Shown: piece after piece, positions 41,799 through 51,376 of the stretch | Position numbering within the stretch: position 1 is the first letter of the stretch | Layout: each line of letters starts with the position of its first letter | DNA from: Saccharopolyspora thermophila | Lineage (GTDB): Bacteria > Actinomycetota > Actinomycetes > Mycobacteriales > Pseudonocardiaceae | Length of the DNA: 64,000 bases | Assembly (NCBI RefSeq): GCF_014646075.1 | Contig: NZ_BMMT01000006.1 | Location: 186,001 to 250,000, forward strand | Reading direction: 5' to 3' | Program-made: the position numbers and the translations under genes | The notes under the pieces: generated by a model | What the model was told of the DNA's origin: nothing | The model's database searches: none | Seen by the model: only the letters and a program-made list of their open reading frames with translations

Positions 41799-42659
41799 AT
41801 GTCCGACCGGGGCGACCCGATGCCGGGGCGTCAGGACCTGCGGGCGGACTGCGGCCGCTGCGCGGGGCTGTGCTGCGTGGTGCCCGCGTTCACCGCTTCC
41901 GCGGACTTCGCGGTCGACAAACCCGCCGGACAGCCGTGCCGCAACCTGCTGGCGGACTTCCGCTGCGGCATCCACGACCGGCTGCGCGACCGCGGTTTCC
42001 TCGGCTGCGTGGTGTTCGACTGCTTCGGCGCGGGCCAACAGGTCACCCAGGTCACCTTCGGCGGTCGGACGTGGCGCGACGAACCCGGCCTGGCGCCGTC
42101 GATGTTCGCGGTGTTCACGGTGATGCGGCAGTTGCAGGAACTGCGCTGGTACCTCACCGAGAGCCTGGAGCTGCTGCCCCGGGGCCCGCTGCGCGATGAG
42201 GTGTCGGCCGCGCTGGAACGCACGGCGCGGCTGGTGTCGGCGCCCGCGGCGGAGCTGGAGTCCTTCGACGGCGCGGCATACCGGCAGGAGGTCGGGCAGC
42301 TGCTGGGCCGCGTGAGCGAGAGCGCGCGGGAGGGGCTCCGCGGCGCCGATCGACGCGGGGCGGATCTGATCGGGGCCAAACTGCGGGGCGCGGACCTGCG
42401 CGGCGTGAGCCTGCGCGGGGCGTACCTCATCGGCGCCGACCTGCGGGGCGCGGACCTACGGCACGCGGACCTGCTGGGCGCCGACCTGCGGGCCGCCGAC
42501 CTCGGCGGGGCGGACCTGCGGGGCAGCATCTTCCTCACCCAGCCCCAGCTCGACGCGGCCCGGGGGGACGCTGCCACCGCGCTCCCGGCCGCGCTGACCC
42601 GCCCGCGGCACTGGTCGTCGTCGGCGGCCCCGCAGTCGCGCCGGAAGCGCCGCCGCTGA
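41799..42659 (+). CDS. pentapeptide-repeat protein with Cys-rich N-terminus
   Basis: A 286-residue protein. Residues 1-75 are Cys-rich ([14 protein letters not shown] ... [13 protein letters not shown] ... [11 protein letters not shown]), suggesting metal binding. A helical middle follows. Residues about 180-250 are pentapeptide repeats ([20 protein letters not shown]), a right-handed beta-helix that mimics DNA in proteins such as Qnr. The basic tail ends RRKRRR. The function is unknown. Start is the ATG at 41799 after a GGAAGG-type site. Confidence 0.85.
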
Positions 42660-42706: not shown

Positions 42707-43354
42707 TCAGTTCCTGGGGTTCTGGCCGTACGTTGCGAACAGCTTCGCGCAGCGGGCCAGTTCCTCGTCGCTCAGCAGGTGCGGGTCGCCCACTCGGGCC
42801 GCCGTGAGCCAGAGTTCGCAGAGCCATTCCAGTTGGCGGGCCCGGTGGTACGCCTTCGGCAGGGTTTCCGCGATCGTGATCGTGCCGTGGTTGCGCAGGA
42901 CACAGCCCGTTCGGCCGGCCAGGGCCTGCGACATCGACTCCGCCAGTTCCGGGCTGCCGAACGTCGCGTACCGCGCCACGCGCACCGCGCCGCCGAAGTC
43001 GGCCAGCTGGTAGTGGACCGCCGGGACGTCGTCGCGCAGCAGGGACAGCGCCGTCGCGTTCAGGGAGTGGGTGTGCACCACGGCTCCCGCGTCGTGCTCG
43101 CGGTAGGCGGTCAGGTGCATCGGCAGTTCGGAGGTCGGCTTGAGATCGCCTTCCACCACGTTGCCGTCCAGGTCCACCAGCGGGATGTCCGGCACCCGCA
43201 GGTCCTCGTAGTCCACTCCGGACGGGGTCACCGCCACCAGGTCGCCGCAGCGGACCGAGACGTTGCCGGACGTGCCGACCACCAGCCGGTCGGCCACCAT
43301 CCGACGGGCGATCCTGATGACCTCGCGCCGTTGCTCGGCCAGTCGTGCGTCCAC
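42707..43354 (-). CDS. class II aldolase/adducin-family enzyme
   Basis: A 215-residue zinc-dependent aldolase/epimerase of the fuculose-phosphate aldolase / ribulose-phosphate 4-epimerase family. GTSGNVSVR binds phosphate, TSELPMHL carries the acidic residue, and HTHSLNA plus NHGTITIAE supply Zn ligands. It is the last gene of the six-gene polyol operon and would cleave or rearrange a phosphorylated ketose. The GTG at 43354 comes 11 bases after the isomerase stop; an overlapping GTG at 43372 is an alternative. Confidence 0.87.
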   Translation of the reverse strand: MDARLAEQRREVIRIARRMVADRLVVGTSGNVSVRCGDLVAVTPSGVDYEDLRVPDIPLVDLDGNVVEGDLKPTSELPMHLTAYREHDAGAVVHTHSLNATALSLLRDDVPAVHYQLADFGGAVRVARYATFGSPELAESMSQALAGRTGCVLRNHGTITIAETLPKAYHRARQLEWLCELWLTAARVGDPHLLSDEELARCAKLFATYGQNPRN

Positions 43355-43365
43355 TCCACCCCCGT

Positions 43366-43830
43366 TCAACACGCCGACTCGTACTCGCCGATCGCCGCGA
43401 CCTTCTGCGCCGACGGCGACGACTCGTCAAACCGGTACTCCAGCCATTCCGCGGCCAGCTTGCGGGCCAGCTCCAATCCGATCACACGCTGGCCGAAGCA
43501 CAACACCTGGGCGTTGTTGCTCAGCACCGAACGCTGCACCGAATAGCTGTCGTGCGCGGTGACCGCCCGGATGCCCGGCACCTTGTTGGCGCTGATCGCC
43601 ACGCCCAGGCCGGTGCCGCACACCAGCAGCGCCCGGTCAGCCCGCCCCTGGGCGACCATCCGCGCCGCGGTGACCGCCACGTGCGGGTAGGCGGTGTGCT
43701 CGTCCGCGCCCACCCCGACGTCCACCACGTCGGCGACCCGTGGGTCTGCTTGCAGATCCTGCTTCAGCTGCTCCTTGTACTGCAGCCCCGCGTCGTCGGA
43801 ACCCACCACGATGCGCAACCGCTCGGTCAC
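43366..43830 (-). CDS. RpiB/LacAB-family sugar-phosphate isomerase
   Basis: A 154-residue aldose-ketose isomerase. [20 protein letters not shown] holds the catalytic Cys of the RpiB family, and [13 protein letters not shown] and [14 protein letters not shown] are conserved neighbours. In tetritol-degrading mycobacteria and rhizobia such enzymes convert D-erythrulose-4-phosphate to D-erythrose-4-phosphate, and the gene order here (directly after a DhaKL-type kinase, GTGA overlap) supports that role. Ribose- or allose-phosphate activity is the alternative. Confidence 0.88.
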
Positions 43831-45563
43831 CTGTCCTCGTCCTTTCCGTTCCCGGCGAGCACCTCGCCGATCCGGTTCAGCGCCAGCGCCAGCGACGTCG
43901 CCCCCGGGTCGGGGGTGCCGACGCTGCGTTCGGCCAGCGGCCGCGCCCGGCCCGTGCGGGGCCGCAGCTGCGCGGTGTGCTCGGCGGCCTTCGTCGCCGC
44001 CTTCGCGGCCTGCCGCCACGCGTCCCGGCCGCTGGCGCCGGCGTCCACCGCGCCGCGCAGTTCCGCCACGAACGGCACCAGCGCATCCACCAACGTCTTG
44101 TCGCCGACCTCCGCGCGCCCCAGTCGCTGCACGGCTGCCAGCGCCGCCGACGCGCCGGCGGCCAGGTCGCCCGCCAGGGCCGCCCGGTGATCGGGCAGCT
44201 GGTCGCCGAACGACCGCAACGCCGCACCCCACAGGGCACCGGACGTGCCGCCCGCCTTGGCCGCCCACGCGTCGCCCGCCGCCAGCAGCACCGCCGCCGG
44301 GCCGACGCCCCTGGCCGCGGCTTCCTCGGCCGCTGCCACCGCGGCCGCGCTGCCACGCGTCATGCCGCGGCCGTGGTCGCCGTCACCGGCAATGGCGTCC
44401 AGGCGACCGAGTTCCTCCTCCTGCTCCGCCAGCAGATCCGCCACCGCGCGTAGGGACCGCAGCACCAGCGCCGCCGTCGCCTGCCCCTCCGGCGGGGCCA
44501 CCACGGTGACCTGCTCCACGGCCGGCGGCTGGTGGTCCACATCGGACTCATCCGGTTCGGCGGCCGCCACCGTGCCCCTGCGGTAGGCGGGCGTGTCGGC
44601 CGGGGCCCGCCACAGCCGCTCCAACTCCGGGTCCAGCCAGGTCAGCGTCAGCGAGCAGCCGGCCATGTCGAGGCTGGTCACCAGCTCGCCGACCTCGGGG
44701 GCAACGACCTCCAGCCCGGCGTCGGCCAGCAGCCGCGACACCGTGCCCCAGACCACGAACAGCTCCTCGTACTTGGTGGCCCCGAGGCCGTTGAGGATGG
44801 CGGTCACCCGCCGCGAATCCGCCTCTGGTGCCTCCGCGAGCAGCCCGTCGACCAGGATCTTCGCCAGCTCCGCCGCAGCGGGCAGGTCCCGCTCGGACAC
44901 GCCCGGTTCGCCGTGGATGCCCAGGCCCAGCCCCATCCGGCCGTCCGGCACCTCGAACAGCGGGTGGTCCTGGCCGGGCAGCGTGCAGCCGTCAAAGGCC
45001 ACGCCCAGGCTGCGGGTGCGGGCGTTGGCGTGCTCGGCGACGCGCACCACCTCGTCGAAGGAGTAGCCCTCCTCCGCGGCCGCCGAGGCGACCTTGAACA
45101 CCACGAAGTCGCCGACCACGCCGCGGCGCTTGTGCTGCTCGGCGGCCGGGGCGCTGGCCACGTCGTCGGTGACCACCACGTTGTGCGCGCGGATGCCGTC
45201 GCGCTCCAGCCGCTCCACGGCCAGGCCGAAGTTCATGTTGTCCCCGGCGTAGTTGCCGAAGGAGAACACCACCCCGGCCCCCCGGTCGGCGGCCCGACCC
45301 ACCGAGTAGGCGTCCTTGGCCGACGGAGAGGTGAAGATGTTGCCGATCACCGCGCCGTCGGCGAAACCCGGCCCGACCACCCCGCAGAACGCCGGGTAGT
45401 GGCCGGACCCGCCGCCGGTGACCACGGCGACCTTGCCGCGCCGCGCGGGCCTGGCGCGCACCACGCCGCCCGGCACCTGCCGGACGTACTCGGGGTGGGC
45501 CGCCACGAAACCGGTCACCATGTCCTCGGTGAACGACGCCGGGTCGTTGTACAGCCGCGTCAT
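43827..45563 (-). CDS. single-chain dihydroxyacetone/erythrulose kinase (DhaK-DhaL fusion)
   Basis: A 578-residue ATP-dependent ketose kinase. The DhaK part (about 1-330) has [13 protein letters not shown] and GIHGEPG, whose His forms a hemiaminal with the substrate. The DhaL part (about 370-578) has [11 protein letters not shown] for Mg-ATP. Paired with an RpiB-type isomerase, this class acts as D- or L-erythrulose kinase rather than a glycerol-pathway enzyme. It overlaps the isomerase gene by GTGA and lies 22 bases after the FGGY kinase. Confidence 0.92.
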
Positions 45564-45585
45564 CTCAAGCTCCTTGTCGGGGAAG

Positions 45586-47049
45586 TCAGGACGTCGCGCC
45601 CCAGTGCGGGCGGGCCCGGTCGATCGAGGCCAGGTAGGCGCGGTAGCCGCGCTCGTAGAACTCCACGGCGTCCGGGTGCGGCACCACGGTGCGCCGCGCG
45701 GCGGCCCACTGCTCGCGGTCCACCGGCTCGCCCAGCGAATCCCAGGCGGTCATGGCCGCGCCGCGCGCGCCCACGCCCACCTCGTGCGGCACATACAGCG
45801 GGCGGCCCAGCACGTCGGCGAAGATCTGGCTCCACGCCGCCGACCGCGCCCCGCCGCCGCACGCCGACACCGCACCGGTCAGGCCCGCGGTCTCCAGGTT
45901 GTGCCGGGCGGCGTAGGCAACCGCCTCGCACATCGCCCGCACCAGGTCGGCCTGGGTGGTTTCCAGCGACAGCCCGGTGAACTGGCCGCGGGCGCGCGGG
46001 TCGACGAACGGGGCGCGTTCCCCGGAACCGGACAGGAACGACAGCGCCGACACCCCGTTCGCGCCGGGCCTGCTGGCGGCCAGCAGCGACTCCAACTGGT
46101 CGATTCCGGCGCCGACCATGGCCAGCACCCAGTCGAGGTTGGCGGTGCCGACCATCGCGGGCATCACCCGCAGGTAGCGGTCCGCCAGCGGGGTGGCCAG
46201 CCACATGCCCGCGACCTCCCCGTCGGGGTCGATGGCGACGTCGTCGCGCAGGACCTGGCAGCCCAGCGTCGTGCCGATCACCAGCGCGCCGTCGCCGACC
46301 TCGCTGACGCCGGAACCGAAGGCGCACGCGGGCAGGTCGAACGGGCCCGCGGACACCGGCAGCCCAGCGGGCAGGCCGAGTGCCTTGGCGCTGCCGCCGT
46401 CCAGCGCGAACAGCTTGCCCGGCGGTGCGGGCTCGGCCAGCAGCCTGCGGTGCTCGGCCACACCGCACGCCTGCAGAGCCTCCTGCGAGTAGCTGCGGGT
46501 CGGCACGTCCAGGAACGGCAGCGACGCGTCGGAGGCGTCCACGGTGATCTCACCGGTGAAGCGCTGCACGATGGCGTCCACGCAGTACCCGGCGACGGCC
46601 GCACGCTCCAGGCGCTCCGGGGCATGCTCGGACAGGTGCGCCAGCAGCGGACCGGCCGAGCCGGGGAACATCCCCGAGCCGGTCAGCCGGTACACCTGCC
46701 GCTGCACCCCGGTCCGGCCCCACCGGTCCAGCACGTCGGCGGCGCGGGCGTCCAGCCAGGAGATCGCCGGGCCCACCTGCCGGCCCTGGTGGTCGCGCAG
46801 CCACAGCCCGTCGCCCTGGCCGGTGATGGCCAGCGCCTCCACCGGCACCCCGGCGCGGTCGGCCGCTTCGGCGACCTTTCGGACCACGTGGACCACCGAG
46901 CCGATGACCTCGTCGAGGTCCTGCTCCACCCGCCCGCCGGGCAAGCGGTGCAGGGTGCTGCGCATGCTGTGGGTGACCAGCGCGGAGCCGTCACGGTTCA
47001 GCAGCGACGCCTTGGTCACCGACGTGCCGACGTCGACCCCGATGATCAT
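45586..47049 (-). CDS. FGGY-family carbohydrate kinase
   Basis: A 487-residue sugar/polyol kinase. The N-terminal ATPase strand is GVDVGTSVTKASLL, the substrate-side segment TGQGDGLWL and the C-terminal ACGGGARSAAW are typical of FGGY kinases. Relatives include xylulokinase and erythritol kinase (EryA); specificity cannot be read. It overlaps the dehydrogenase stop by ATGA. Having two kinases of unrelated folds in one operon suggests two entry substrates. Confidence 0.9.
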   Translation of the reverse strand: MIIGVDVGTSVTKASLLNRDGSALVTHSMRSTLHRLPGGRVEQDLDEVIGSVVHVVRKVAEAADRAGVPVEALAITGQGDGLWLRDHQGRQVGPAISWLDARAADVLDRWGRTGVQRQVYRLTGSGMFPGSAGPLLAHLSEHAPERLERAAVAGYCVDAIVQRFTGEITVDASDASLPFLDVPTRSYSQEALQACGVAEHRRLLAEPAPPGKLFALDGGSAKALGLPAGLPVSAGPFDLPACAFGSGVSEVGDGALVIGTTLGCQVLRDDVAIDPDGEVAGMWLATPLADRYLRVMPAMVGTANLDWVLAMVGAGIDQLESLLAASRPGANGVSALSFLSGSGERAPFVDPRARGQFTGLSLETTQADLVRAMCEAVAYAARHNLETAGLTGAVSACGGGARSAAWSQIFADVLGRPLYVPHEVGVGARGAAMTAWDSLGEPVDREQWAAARRTVVPHPDAVEFYERGYRAYLASIDRARPHWGATS

Positions 47050-48104
47050 GGCCGCAGACCTTCGAACCGGGCGAGCACGTCCGGGTTGGCCACGAAGCGC
47101 GGCCGCTGCCCGGCAAGGAACCGGGCCACCTCACCGGCGACGATCTCGGCGGCGCGGTGCGCGGTCTGCCGGGTGGCGCCGGCCAGGTGCGGGGTGGTGA
47201 TGACGTTCGGCGCGTCGAACAGCGGCCAGTCGCGCGGCGGGGGTTCGATGTCGTAGACGTCGACCGCCAGCGCTCCCAGGCGACCGGACCTGAGCAGCTC
47301 CGGCAGCGGCGCGTAGTCGAGCAGGCCGCCGCGCGCGGAGTTGACCAGCACGGCCCCTTCCGGCAGCAGCTTGAGGTTGTCGGCGTTGAGCAGGTGCCTG
47401 GTTTCCGGGGTCAGGCGCGCGTGCAGGCTGACCACCGAGCTGCGGCGCAGCAGGGTCTCCAGATCGACCAGCTCCACGCCGTCGCGGGCGGCGTCCTCGG
47501 GGTTGGCGAACGGGTCGGACACCAGCACGTGCGAGCCGAAGGCGCGCAGCACCCGGGCGACGATTGTGCCGATCGCGCCGTAGCCGACGAGGCCGACCGT
47601 GGCGCCTTCCAGCTCGATCCCGGCGTTGTCGTAGGAGTAGTAGTCGCCGCGCCAGTTGCCCGCCTTCAACTCGGCGTCGGAGCCGGGGATGCGGCGAAGC
47701 GCGGCGAGGATCAGGCCGACGGCGAACTCGGCGGCGGCCGCGGCGTTGCGCCCCGGCGCGTAGCTGACGATCACACCGTTGTCGGTGGCGGCCGCCAGGT
47801 CGACGTTCACCGGGCCACCGCGGCAGACGCCGACGAACCTCAGCTGCGGGCTGGCGTTGAGCACGTCAGCGGTGAACGGGGCCATCTGGGTGGCCACGAT
47901 CTCCGCCCCGCCCAGCGCGTCGAGCAGCTGCTGCTCGGTGCCGCTGGCCTCCTGCACGTTGCCGACCGGCCCGAACGGCTCCACCGGCCACGGCAGCTGC
48001 AGCGTGCTGAACTCCAGGTCGTGCTCACCGGCGCTGCGGCGCAGCGCGTCGACGAACACCTCGGGCGCGACGAAGTGGTCTCCTGCGGCGAGAACCTTGG
48101 TCAT
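47046..48104 (-). CDS. D-isomer-specific 2-hydroxyacid dehydrogenase family protein
   Basis: A 352-residue NAD(P)-dependent oxidoreductase. The nucleotide motif is VGLVGYGAIGTIVARVL, the substrate Arg is probably in VGVCRGGPVNVDL, and the catalytic His is in TTPHLAGATRQT. It would oxidise or reduce a 2-hydroxyacid, or a related hydroxy compound, made in this pathway. It follows the HAD gene by 78 bases and overlaps the FGGY kinase. GGAG lies 9 bases before the ATG at 48104. Confidence 0.9.
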   Translation of the reverse strand: MTKVLAAGDHFVAPEVFVDALRRSAGEHDLEFSTLQLPWPVEPFGPVGNVQEASGTEQQLLDALGGAEIVATQMAPFTADVLNASPQLRFVGVCRGGPVNVDLAAATDNGVIVSYAPGRNAAAAAEFAVGLILAALRRIPGSDAELKAGNWRGDYYSYDNAGIELEGATVGLVGYGAIGTIVARVLRAFGSHVLVSDPFANPEDAARDGVELVDLETLLRRSSVVSLHARLTPETRHLLNADNLKLLPEGAVLVNSARGGLLDYAPLPELLRSGRLGALAVDVYDIEPPPRDWPLFDAPNVITTPHLAGATRQTAHRAAEIVAGEVARFLAGQRPRFVANPDVLARFEGLRP

Positions 48105-48182
48105 GTCTGCGGACTCCTCTGTCACGTGTCACCGCCGGTGCGGGGCGGGGAAGAAGGGCCTTTCTCGTGCGGCGGCGTGCCG

Positions 48183-48881
48183 TCAGCTGCCGACCGGTTC
48201 GGGCAGTGCACCCACCAGGCGCAGCCGCACGTCGTCGAGGTTGGCGGCGACGTAGCTGGCCTGGGCCAGCGCGTCCTCGGCCGGGGGGTAGTCGGAGTTG
48301 GGAATGGCCACCACAGTCATCCCCGCTGCGGCCGCGGCGCGCAACCCGTTACTGGAGTCCTCGACCGCCAGGCAGTGCCGCGGGTCCTCGCCGAGCTTGT
48401 CGGCGGCCGACAGGTACACGTCCGGACTGGGCTTGCCCTTGGCAACCTCGGCGCTGGAGACCGTGGCGGTGAAGTGCCGGATGAGCCCGTGGCGGTCCAA
48501 CACGGCGTCGATCAGCCGGCGGGGCGCGGAGGACGCGAGGGCGATCGGGGCCCGCGCGGCGACCTCGGTGACCATGCGTTCGGCGCCGGGCAGCAGTTCG
48601 ATCTCGCCGCCGTCGAGGGCGGCGATCATGTCGTCGACCACGATCCGCTCGGTCTCGGCGGCGGTCTCGGCGGCGCCGCTGAACTCGGCGAGGAAGGCCG
48701 ACCACTCCGGGGCGCTCATGCCCTGCACCTGGCGGGTCTGCGCGGCGGTCCAGGTGCGGCCCCGGGCAGCGGCGAACCTGGCCCACATCCGCTCCCACAG
48801 GTGCTCGCTTTCGACCAGGACGCCGTCCATGTCGAACACGACCGCGCGGTGGGTGTCGTTCGGCCCCTCGGACTGGGTCAT
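48183..48881 (-). CDS. HAD-superfamily phosphatase/phosphoglucomutase-like
   Basis: A 232-residue HAD hydrolase with cap. Motif I is FDMDGVLVES, motif II is LASSAP, motif III Lys is in KGKPSPDVYL and motif IV is AVEDSSNG. It would dephosphorylate a sugar or polyol phosphate or isomerise a sugar phosphate. It is the first gene of the polyol operon, 37 bases from the operator dyad. GGGAGGT before the ATG at 48881 fixes the start over the upstream 48899. Confidence 0.9.
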   Translation of the reverse strand: MTQSEGPNDTHRAVVFDMDGVLVESEHLWERMWARFAAARGRTWTAAQTRQVQGMSAPEWSAFLAEFSGAAETAAETERIVVDDMIAALDGGEIELLPGAERMVTEVAARAPIALASSAPRRLIDAVLDRHGLIRHFTATVSSAEVAKGKPSPDVYLSAADKLGEDPRHCLAVEDSSNGLRAAAAAGMTVVAIPNSDYPPAEDALAQASYVAANLDDVRLRLVGALPEPVGS

Positions 48882-48914
48882 CTCATTACCTCCCGCCACT
48901 CACTGACGGCGCTA

Positions 48915-48943
48915 AAATTAACATGATCAACGTTAATTGTCAC
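48915..48943 (-). promoter_or_regulatory. polyol operon promoter with DeoR operator
   Basis: On the minus strand GTGACA (48943-48938) and TAATTT (48920-48915) are 17 bp apart. The dyad TTAAC-N9-GTTAA (48918-48936) covers the spacer and -10. The same dyad lies before the permease gene at 49906-49924, so one repressor should control both. Confidence 0.75.
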
Positions 48944-49016
48944 CCTCCATTTGATAGTTCGTGCTCACGTGGGGTGTCCGGCACCGCCGCGGCGGAGCAC
49001 GGGGCAAGATGACCCC

Positions 49017-49805
49017 ATGGCGTCCGCACCGAAGAAGCAGTCCCCCCGGCTCCTGCGACAGCAGAAGATCGTCGATCACGTCGTCGCGCAGGGCTTCGCC
49101 AGCGCCGCGGAGCTGGCCGAGCTGACCGGGGTCAGCCTGATGACGGTGCACCGCGACCTGGACGACCTGGTCACCCGCGGCCTGCTGCGCAAGTTCCACG
49201 GCGGCGTCTCCGCCCAGCCGTCCACGGTGTTCGAGAGCAGCTCGGACTTCCGGCTGCACACCCACACCGCCGAGAAGGAGGCGCTGGCCAAGGTGGCGCT
49301 GGAGTTCATCACGCCCGGTCAGTCGGTGATGCTGGACGACTCCACCACCGCGCTCGCGCTGGCCCGGCTGCTGCCGGACGTCGGCCCGCTGACCGTGGTC
49401 AGCAACTACCGGCAGGTGCAGGAGACGCTGCGGGACGTGCCCGACATCCGGCTGATCGGTTTGGGCGGCGAGTACTCCCGCACGCACGACTCCTACCTGG
49501 GGTTGCCCTGCCAGGAGATGATCAGCACCTTCTCGGTGGACATCGTGTTCCTGTCCACCTCGGCGATGAACGCGCGGCTGACCTACCACCAGGAGCAGGA
49601 GATCGTGCTGGTCAAGCGGGCGATGCTGGCCAGCGCGACGACAAAGGTGCTGATGATGGACGCCAGCAAGGTGGCGCGGTCGGCGCTGCACCAGTTCGCG
49701 CCGGTCAGCGCGTTCGACCACGTGCTGCTGGCCGGCGAGCTCGACCCGGCCCTGATCGAGGAGATGCGCGAGCAGACCGACGTCCGCGTCGCCCCCATGG
49801 ACTGA
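49017..49805 (+). CDS. DeoR-family transcriptional regulator
   Basis: A 262-residue regulator. The N-terminal winged helix (about 14-65) contains FASAAELAELTGVSLMTVHRD. The C-terminal DeoRC sensor domain contains LDDSTTALALARLL and GLGGEYSRTHDSYLG, which bind sugar phosphates in the family. It is divergent from the six-gene operon and followed by the permease. It almost certainly binds the TTAAC-N9-GTTAA sites on both sides. Start is the ATG at 49017. Confidence 0.92.
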   Translation: MASAPKKQSPRLLRQQKIVDHVVAQGFASAAELAELTGVSLMTVHRDLDDLVTRGLLRKFHGGVSAQPSTVFESSSDFRLHTHTAEKEALAKVALEFITPGQSVMLDDSTTALALARLLPDVGPLTVVSNYRQVQETLRDVPDIRLIGLGGEYSRTHDSYLGLPCQEMISTFSVDIVFLSTSAMNARLTYHQEQEIVLVKRAMLASATTKVLMMDASKVARSALHQFAPVSAFDHVLLAGELDPALIEEMREQTDVRVAPMD

Positions 49806-49905
49806 TCCGGACCCGAACGAACGCGGCGCGAGCACGTCCGCGCCGGCGGTCCGCGCTGCCCCGCACCGGCCACACCCTCGACGCGGTGATCGGATTTTCT
49901 CCAAA

Positions 49906-49924
49906 TTAACGTCTTGCGCGTTAA
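49906..49924 (+). promoter_or_regulatory. DeoR operator before the polyol permease
   Basis: TTAAC-gtcttgcgc-GTTAA has the same arms and 9-base spacing as the dyad in the polyol operon promoter. The flanking AAA on the left is also shared. Confidence 0.72.
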
Positions 49925-50011
49925 GTTGAACGGGGTGCATGATAGCCAGCACCCGTGGCCCGGACGCGTCGCGAGGACGTCACCGGGAACTTCCGATCCT
50001 TGGAGACAGTG

Positions 50012-51376
50012 ATGTCCCACCAGACCACAGCGGAGACCGAGGCGAACCGCCCGGTCAGCAGACTCGACCGCATCGGTATCCCCAGGGAGCTGTTCTGGGG
50101 CTTCGTCGCCGTGCTCATCTTCATGATCGGCGACGGCGTGGAGACCACCTTCCTCTCGGACTACCTGCAGCAACCCGAGGGCGGCGGCCTGCCCGGCGCG
50201 ACCGCGTCGTTCGCCACCGTCACGATCTACGGCGTCACCGCCATGATCGCCTCGTGGTTCTCCGGGACGCTGTCGTCGATCTGGGGTCCGCGCCGGGTGA
50301 TGTGGCTCGGTGGCGCCTGGTGGGTCGTGTTCGAGGCACTGTTTCTGTTCGTGGCGCTGCCGGCGCACAACGCGACGCTGATCGTGGCCGCCTACGGCAT
50401 CCGCGGCTTCGCCTACCCGCTGTTCGCGTTCGCGTTCCTGGTGTGGGCGCAGATCGCCAGCCCGACCAAGATGCGCGGGTCGGTCGCCGGGTGGTTCTGG
50501 TTCGCCTTCACCGGCGGTCTGCCCACGCTGGGTGCGGCCGTGGCCGCGGTCGCCATCGGCGTCTTCGGCATGACCCAGTACGGCACCCTGGTGCTGTCGC
50601 TGGTGGTGGTCACCACCGGCGTGCTCATCGGCAGCGTCGCGGTCCGCGAGGAGCACGGTCTCAAGCCGATCGCCGACGAGACGGTGGAGAACCCGCGCAG
50701 CATCAAGCGGCTCGGCGAGGGCGTGGACATCCTCTGGCGCGACCGACGCACGCTGGCCGGTGGTCTGATCCGGATCGTCAACACCGCCCCGCAGTACGGC
50801 TTCTTCGCGATGTTCCCGTTCGTGCTCGGCCCGGCCACGCCCGGCGGCGGCTTCCTCAGCGCCGCGCAGGTGGCCACCCTCGCGTCCATCAGCTACGGCG
50901 CGAACATTGCCGCGAACCTGTTCTTCGGCGTGTTCGCCGACCGCTTCGGCTGGCGGCGCACCATCACCTGGTTCGGCTGCGTGGGCTGCGCCATCGCGAC
51001 CCCGCTGTGGTACTTCGCCGCCGTGAGCACCCAGAGCTTCGCGGTGACGGCCACCTTCGGCGTCGTCTACGGCATCCTGCTGGCCGGATTCGTGCCGCTG
51101 TCGGCGCTCATGCCGTCGATGGTGGAGCCCAAGGACAAGGGTTCGGCGCTGGCGATTCTGAACTTCGGCGCCGGTGGCGCGGCGTTCGTCGGCCCGGTGG
51201 TGGTCACCATCCTGTTCCCGCTGGTCGGCGGTGCCGGGGTGGCCGTCGCGTTCAGCCTGCTGTACCTGGCCGTGGCGCTGCTGAGCCTGAAGGTCAAGGA
51301 CGCCTGCGACCCGGGTGAGCAGCGGCTCCGGGCCCGCTCGGCGAGTGCGGCGGAAACCGTCCGCACCCCGGCCTGA
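50012..51376 (+). CDS. polyol-type MFS permease (CsbX/RbtT/DalT-like)
   Basis: A 454-residue 12-helix MFS transporter. The N-terminus GIPRELFWGFVAVLIFMIGD, then GVETTFLSDYL, is the hallmark of the polyol permease subgroup that includes ribitol and arabitol transporters. It probably imports the polyol or ketose consumed by the divergent operon. GGAG lies 7 bases before the ATG at 50012. The DeoR-type dyad upstream ties its expression to the catabolic genes. Confidence 0.9.
   Translation: MSHQTTAETEANRPVSRLDRIGIPRELFWGFVAVLIFMIGDGVETTFLSDYLQQPEGGGLPGATASFATVTIYGVTAMIASWFSGTLSSIWGPRRVMWLGGAWWVVFEALFLFVALPAHNATLIVAAYGIRGFAYPLFAFAFLVWAQIASPTKMRGSVAGWFWFAFTGGLPTLGAAVAAVAIGVFGMTQYGTLVLSLVVVTTGVLIGSVAVREEHGLKPIADETVENPRSIKRLGEGVDILWRDRRTLAGGLIRIVNTAPQYGFFAMFPFVLGPATPGGGFLSAAQVATLASISYGANIAANLFFGVFADRFGWRRTITWFGCVGCAIATPLWYFAAVSTQSFAVTATFGVVYGILLAGFVPLSALMPSMVEPKDKGSALAILNFGAGGAAFVGPVVVTILFPLVGGAGVAVAFSLLYLAVALLSLKVKDACDPGEQRLRARSASAAETVRTPA

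Follow-up and report, generated by a model that had tools for sequence, protein, structure and literature searches.

In a 64,000-nucleotide stretch of the 5.36-Mb genome of Saccharopolyspora thermophila (hereafter the window), we analyzed a set of eight genes that we read, with confidence a little short of even, as an inducible regulon for the catabolism of small polyols, probably tetritols, pentitols (of which ribitol, or adonitol, is one example) or both, in which the polyol would be phosphorylated first, then oxidized by a protein of the D-2-hydroxyacid dehydrogenase family (D2HDH), and finally passed to an aldolase or through a swap of its phosphate group. The order on the minus strand is HAD phosphatase, D2HDH, a first FGGY kinase (FGGY1), a fused DhaKL kinase, an RpiB-type isomerase and a class II aldolase, with the genes of a DeoR-family regulator and a permease divergent on the plus strand. 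A preliminary description of the window had named these eight genes and their families, and the coordinates, strands and Pfam and NCBIfam matches that we obtained agree with it.

In the proposed route, the permease would bring in the polyol, FGGY1 would phosphorylate a terminal carbon, and D2HDH, in place of the usual polyol dehydrogenase, would oxidize the polyol phosphate to a ketose phosphate, most simply a ketose-1-phosphate. Two branches could follow. In one, the FucA-type aldolase would split the ketose-1-phosphate into dihydroxyacetone phosphate (DHAP) and an aldehyde (glycolaldehyde if the substrate is ribulose-1-phosphate); in the other, a phosphatase would release the ketose and a second kinase would rephosphorylate it at the far end. 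For a tetrulose this second kinase would be DhaKL, acting on D-erythrulose, after which RpiB would yield D-erythrose-4-phosphate, and for pentuloses it would be a second FGGY kinase (FGGY2), acting with a second HAD protein, both encoded elsewhere in the window's genome. DeoR would govern the operon and the permease through one palindrome. The presence of two substrates, or of an aldolase branch, is plausible. We favor phosphorylation as the first step because it accounts jointly for the likeness of FGGY1 to EryA and for the presence of both phosphatases and second kinases.

Partners of D2HDH across actinobacteria

The neighborhood survey began with 104 loci (the window and L026-L128), reduced to 101 by removing 3 without a cluster D2HDH, to 98 by removing 3 exact duplicates, and to the 81 loci counted here by dropping 17 with less than 6 kb on one side. 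Genes were called with a custom caller that may miss or mis-start some (the DhaKL of L163 was overlooked), and kinship among the loci inflates the counts. A scan of named genomes gave the best 80 of at least 412 loci. The genome-neighborhood check proposed in the preliminary description, run in this way, found the same partners recurring around D2HDH in many actinobacterial genera; hence the gene set is real and widespread and not a product of chance. Within the order (200 genomes), D2HDH occurs at 67-71% identity in 14 further genomes, with DhaKL, RpiB and FGGY1 adjacent in all 14, and its closest named relatives among the matches listed come from Saccharopolyspora species, at no more than 90% identity.

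Two architectures emerge, a permease type with DhaKL-RpiB-HAD and a mostly ABC type with FGGY1, FGGY2, a histidine phosphatase (HisP) and D2HDH. FGGY1 is present in 77 of the 81 loci. DhaKL is found in 50, every one of which also holds RpiB (50/50) and HAD (50/50), and the aldolase in 23, each time alongside DhaKL (23/23). FGGY2, an RbtB-like kinase, occurs in 52 loci, 48 of which carry either HisP (42) or a further HAD protein, HADb (6), compared with 3 of the 29 loci that lack FGGY2. Taking both second kinases together, HAD or HisP accompanies them in 75 of 77 loci. The phosphatase partner varies in family: HisP matches His_Phos_1 and HADb a HAD hydrolase in Pfam, and the rhizobial RbtC is a HAD-IIA protein. 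Elsewhere in the window's genome, on contig C3 (L190:6940-11502), a DeoR gene, FGGY2 (58%), HADb and an FGGY1-like kinase stand together without D2HDH. Two FGGY2 loci have a transaldolase directly after D2HDH (L114:11076-12209 and L118:11070-12179), which fits entry into the pentose phosphate pathway.

These counts also bear on whether the first two steps run in the opposite order, with D2HDH oxidizing free polyols, FGGY1 and DhaKL phosphorylating the resulting pentulose or tetrulose, and the phosphatases only clearing dead-end phosphates. Such a scheme, which we regard as unlikely but well worth weighing, is simpler in ATP, and it would suit two annotated Streptomyces plasmids whose clusters lack DhaKL and have D2HDH as their only dehydrogenase, an oxidoreductase and an SDR lying ∼4 kb away. 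It would also suit the best general model for FGGY1, xylulokinase, although the match (224 bits) is under the cut-off of 380, and free erythruloses appear as intermediates of Mycobacterium smegmatis in part of a published account (PMC12780249). However, it leaves unexplained the pairing of FGGY2 with a phosphatase, the constant company of DhaKL and HAD, and the link of FGGY1 to EryA, itself weak.

D2HDH and the rhizobial polyol genes

The enzyme set had been described as fitting no single known pathway and as lacking a polyol dehydrogenase. The first of these views is not supported by comparison with the erythritol/adonitol/L-arabitol locus (mptABCDE-ery-rbt-lalA) of Sinorhizobium meliloti, where D2HDH has a counterpart in RbtA (44% identity over 342 residues), the aldolase in FucA (40%), RpiB in RpiB (40%), DeoR in EryR (46%) and, less clearly, FGGY1 in EryA (33%, 185 bits, against 45 bits for RbtB). 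An FGGY2/RbtB kinase with a phosphatase also occurs in the loci of relatives and elsewhere in the window's genome. The second holds by family, as a Pfam scan of the eight proteins found no SDR, zinc or iron polyol dehydrogenase, but probably not by function, since D2HDH is likely to be the stand-in.

The argument for that role comes from context, as sequence and fold do not reveal the substrate; it combines the polyol permease, the rhizobial adonitol/L-arabitol gene, the lack of any other core dehydrogenase, and a genome in which the zinc-type and SDR-type polyol dehydrogenases of mycobacteria have no near relatives (best matches 32% and 38%). In the 33 FGGY2 loci without DhaKL, we likewise saw no SDR, zinc or iron alcohol dehydrogenase among the 20 of 120 non-core proteins that were scanned, which include one NmrA-like and one FAD/NAD-disulfide type protein.

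The rhizobial gene was assigned by elimination. An FGGY-D2HDH-class II aldolase trio occurs in 7 alphaproteobacterial records, an eighth having a close FGGY without D2HDH, and on a Klebsiella plasmid the class II protein next to D2HDH and FGGY is more distant. We read the neighbors of the S. meliloti trio as eryD, the mpt transporter, EryB, one more class II protein and one more FGGY, a HAD protein, EryC, EryR, TpiB and RpiB; RbtB adjoins RbtC in rhizobia. The genes lalA-rbtABC serve adonitol and L-arabitol, not erythritol, and fucA is absent from Sinorhizobium fredii NGR234 (PMC3599248). In our reading of that strain EryA-D2HDH-EryB is present and the 222-residue aldolase absent. Given that the matching of gene names leaves rbtA and that NGR234 keeps D2HDH without this aldolase, as for fucA, D2HDH is likely RbtA. 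In rbtC itself (L132:15605-16463), the frame is interrupted in S. meliloti strain Ak57 and is an open 281-residue frame in S. fredii NGR234. Three alphaproteobacterial plasmids (L134, L136 and L137) have D2HDH, class II aldolase and FGGY together with CoA-transferases, an acetolactate-synthase-like protein and a molybdopterin oxidoreductase.

The window differs from the S. meliloti locus in that its run lacks EryB, LalA, EryC, TpiB and MptABCDE and has an MFS permease rather than an ABC transporter, an additional DhaKL and different phosphatases. RbtB and RbtC belong to the locus in rhizobia; the window's run has neither, and an RbtB-like FGGY2 and another HAD protein lie together on a different contig. 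In a tree of 25 loci, FGGY2 and RbtB form one clade (100/100), although the RbtB row was flagged as long.

In sequence and predicted fold D2HDH is conventional. By profile it comes closest to the phosphoglycerate dehydrogenases, its predicted model (mean pLDDT 94.7) has the ordinary D-2-hydroxyacid dehydrogenase fold, and Arg-258, Glu-287 and His-306, which we take to be the R-E-H triad of that family, are invariant in 55 sequences. A motif, RGGPVN, is nearly invariant in the D2HDH clade at the place of a GxG-type loop in phosphoglycerate dehydrogenases. The idea that its Arg is the phosphate Arg of those enzymes was dropped, because the alignment places it off the Arg of that loop.

With its classical triad and fold, D2HDH might be an ordinary hydroxyacid dehydrogenase acting on by-products such as glyoxylate or hydroxypyruvate, or on a sugar acid, with the polyol dehydrogenase encoded elsewhere, and some alphaproteobacterial relatives do lie near CoA-transferase or TRAP/tricarboxylate transporter genes. 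We consider this improbable: RbtA, by the above elimination, is an adonitol/L-arabitol gene (PMC3599248), the genome has no close mycobacterial-type polyol dehydrogenase, although an unrelated one is possible, and the window's run contains no sugar-acid dehydratase or decarboxylase. A sugar-acid pathway, suggested by D2HDH and by the score of the aldolase with an OtnC-like model (92 bits, cut-off 250), was rejected because the run contains neither an acid-sugar isomerase or dehydratase nor a DUF1537 kinase and because the rhizobial RbtA is a polyol gene. Cryobacterium adonitolivorans, in which D2HDH-FGGY1 lies beside ABC genes, forms acid from adonitol according to a passage of PMC10067761; this lends weak support to a polyol substrate and none to a phosphate swap, because neither a phosphatase nor a second kinase is seen in its stretch.

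Several observations weigh against the kinase-first route with D2HDH as its dehydrogenase. The triad and ordinary fold make an acid substrate the default, and to our knowledge no member of the D-2-hydroxyacid dehydrogenase family acts on polyols. The route costs one extra ATP. A phosphatase is also present in 2 of the 4 loci without a second kinase, so that the contrast is weak (Fisher P 0.011); L125 and L128 carry FGGY2 with no phosphatase; and L045, L062, L077 and L096 have neither a second kinase nor an aldolase in their stretch, L077 coming from the adonitol-using species mentioned above. FGGY1 scores higher with other, uncharacterized FGGY kinases (Shinella 437, Halapricum 289 and Klebsiella 196 bits) than with EryA, and in the tree of 25 loci its connection with the EryA group runs through an open fork (80/93). 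Finally, S. meliloti FucA is dispensable for all three polyols (PMC3599248).

With these reservations, our boldest reading, put forward at somewhat less than even confidence, is that the D2HDH clade marked by RGGPVN has turned into polyol-phosphate (or polyol) dehydrogenases. They would serve a kinase-dehydrogenase-phosphatase-kinase route in which the phosphate changes ends on the sugar, with two unrelated phosphatase superfamilies (histidine phosphatases and several groups of HAD proteins) in one slot across actinobacteria and rhizobia. If true, this would assign a function to a branch of a textbook enzyme family that is widespread but unnamed, account for the rhizobial RbtA, and make sense of the company that two kinases keep with phosphatases in polyol gene sets annotated with generic names. 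The rhizobial locus means that part of the system was known before. Among the papers that our searches listed, we found none joining FGGY kinases, a hydroxyacid dehydrogenase and polyols, and no description of D2HDH as the dehydrogenase or of the phosphate-swap logic, although the primary S. meliloti genetics of 2012 may propose part of this.

The tetrulose step and the aldolase

The comparison with mycobacteria supports the predicted DhaKL-RpiB tetrulose step, D-erythrulose to D-erythrose-4-phosphate, as had been proposed for the window at the outset. DhaKL has matches in 24 of the 78 genomes of one genus in the order, which we take to be mycobacterial because PPE proteins, presumably a mycobacterial hallmark, occur in 6 of the 7 genomes asked; a uracil phosphoribosyltransferase from one such stretch is not nearest to the M. 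tuberculosis chain, which is uninformative or speaks against the label. Two loci appear among the stretches retrieved from this genus. Locus 1 combines DhaKL and RpiB with an ABC transporter and a zinc-type dehydrogenase of 362 residues, to which some genomes add an SDR (the sole one scanned has GolD/DthD as its top model, 230 bits, cut-off 286); in locus 2, DhaKL and RpiB stand with a TIM-type isomerase. Huang et al. (2015) reportedly described the mycobacterial tetritol genes DerK/DerI, LerK/LerI, EltD and DthD, and loci 1 and 2 presumably correspond to DthD/EltD/DerK/DerI and LerK/DerI/LerI of M. smegmatis.

In trees of the window and 20 loci, the window's DhaKL, directly followed by RpiB as in the mycobacterial loci, groups with the locus-1 kinases (100/97), and the Amycolatopsis-type DhaKL forms a separate clade. 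The tree needs two changes for the DhaKL of the core, which was thus either recruited twice or passed on. The window's RpiB is 76-81% identical to that of the six locus-1 stretches listed, and one branch (100/100) holds it with both mycobacterial loci; this long, fully supported branch is all that we use of the RpiB tree, because 14 of its forks are open. The window's run contains no TIM-type isomerase, which would fit D- rather than L-erythrulose. In M. smegmatis, erythruloses and their phosphates lead to erythrose-4-phosphate, as stated in part of PMC12780249. Unlike the mycobacterial loci, the window lacks an EltD/DthD-type dehydrogenase, and conversely no FGGY1, D2HDH, HAD or aldolase was seen in the locus-1 stretches listed.

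Two further relatives were noted. On S. meliloti pSymB (L175:2702-9719), a DhaKL 58% identical to that of the window lies beside PdxA, a tricarboxylate transporter and a sugar-phosphate isomerase, a context suggesting that kinases of this family may act on further substrates as well. A 55-residue piece elsewhere in the window's genome (G000:C4:76588-76752), which matches the C-terminal part of RpiB from the window at 73% identity, looks like a remnant.

Over 204 residues the aldolase shares 42% identity with E. coli FucA, and it keeps the SE, VVH-H, HG and HY motifs, which we take to be the metal His/Glu residues of FucA-type DHAP aldolases. Its top NCBIfam model is ribulose-1-phosphate aldolase (210 bits, under the cut-off of 300). 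This model belongs to the haloarchaeal non-carboxylating pentose bisphosphate pathway, in which, as in the window, a phosphatase precedes the aldolase; in contrast to the window, that pathway starts from nucleosides and, as far as the consulted part of PMC9700705 goes, has no polyol permease or D2HDH. On a haloarchaeal plasmid (L138:1303-8072), FGGY, a class II aldolase and GlpABC stand in a row, possibly an archaeal polyol-phosphate route with a logic like that of the kinase-first order. The Klebsiella ribitol and D-arabitol operons share with the window the RbtT/DalT permease family and an FGGY kinase. In those operons a polyol dehydrogenase acts first, whereas none is recognized in the window.

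The aldolase might also run in the synthetic direction, in a route resembling an erythrulose monophosphate pathway: it would join DHAP and formaldehyde to D-erythrulose-1-phosphate, which HAD, DhaKL and RpiB would convert to erythrose-4-phosphate. E. coli FucA makes this product from these substrates, according to a portion of PMC10733421, the stereochemistry would fit, and the strict company of aldolase with DhaKL, and of DhaKL with HAD and RpiB, is as such a route would have it. We nevertheless hold it to be very improbable, because FGGY1, D2HDH, the polyol permease and the rhizobial homology indicate polyol breakdown, and no formaldehyde-producing gene was recognized in the run. Under the kinase-first reading, the set offers candidate enzymes for the production of rare ketoses, and for one-carbon routes if the aldolase accepts formaldehyde.

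Layout and regulation of the operon

The six enzyme genes are tightly packed, with overlaps or with gaps of at most ∼80 bases. The Pfam families of the eight proteins are Aldolase_II, LacAB_rpiB, Dak1+Dak2, FGGY_N/C, 2-Hacid_dh, HAD hydrolase, HTH_DeoR+DeoRC and MFS. The permease passes the cut-off of the RbtT/DalT/CsbX model TIGR00897 (480 bits against 375), as does RpiB that of TIGR02133 (207 against 168); the top NCBIfam model of the HAD phosphatase, HxpB, is under its cut-off (120 against 191).

A dedicated polyol permease and a DeoR regulator had been suggested for the module, and a palindrome at both promoters strengthens the suggestion. When the HAD-DeoR gaps of the window and 7 Saccharopolyspora loci are aligned, AATTAAC-N9-GTTAA(T/C)T is the most conserved stretch outside the start codons. 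Its core, TTAAC-N9-GTTAA, occurs twice in the window, in this gap and 5′ of the permease (shuffles give 0), and 3 times in the whole genome. Among the 104 loci (2.0 Mb), 11 hold 16 exact palindromes, all 16 upstream of HAD/DeoR or the permease. Since the palindrome is common to both promoters, permease and enzyme operon very probably form one regulon under DeoR, with TTAAC-N9-GTTAA as the candidate operator. Two findings count against this: 93 of the 104 loci have no exact palindrome, and a search allowing 3 mismatches returns the same two window sites but also at least 2 in 16 of 100 shuffles. Both palindromes count as part of the gene set, although its coordinates are drawn to the outer genes. 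The third genomic copy (C11:31667) adjoins TetR-like and acyl-CoA carboxylase-like genes, as judged by eye, and we regard it as unrelated. The second kinase locus, on contig C3, has no TTAAC-N9-GTTAA palindrome and thus no sign of a common regulon with the window.

Table 1. Genes and palindromes of the set, by position in the window
Feature	Position	Strand	Basis and remarks
Class II (FucA-type) aldolase	42707..43372	-	PF00596; FucA-like
RpiB-type isomerase, DerI-like	43366..43830	-	TIGR02133; start overlaps DhaKL stop
DhaKL fused kinase, DerK-like	43827..45563	-	Dak1+Dak2; in tree with locus-1 kinases
FGGY1 kinase, EryA-like	45586..47049	-	FGGY_N/C; start overlaps D2HDH stop
D2HDH, D-2-hydroxyacid dehydrogenase family, RbtA-like	47046..48104	-	PF02826+PF00389; GTG start at 48125 possible
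HAD-family phosphatase	48183..48899	-	PF00702; inner start at 48881 possible
Palindrome TTAAC-N9-GTTAA in HAD-DeoR gap, likely DeoR operator (predicted)	48918..48936	.	Motif search
DeoR-family regulator, EryR-like	49017..49805	+	PF08220+PF00455; upstream TTG start at 48951 possible
Second TTAAC-N9-GTTAA palindrome, 5′ of permease	49906..49924	.	Motif search
MFS polyol permease, RbtT/DalT/CsbX family	50012..51376	+	TIGR00897; upstream GTG at 49955 possible

Just 3′ of the aldolase, on the opposite strand (41799-42659), the window encodes a pentapeptide-like repeat protein (ADLRGA...), read by eye.

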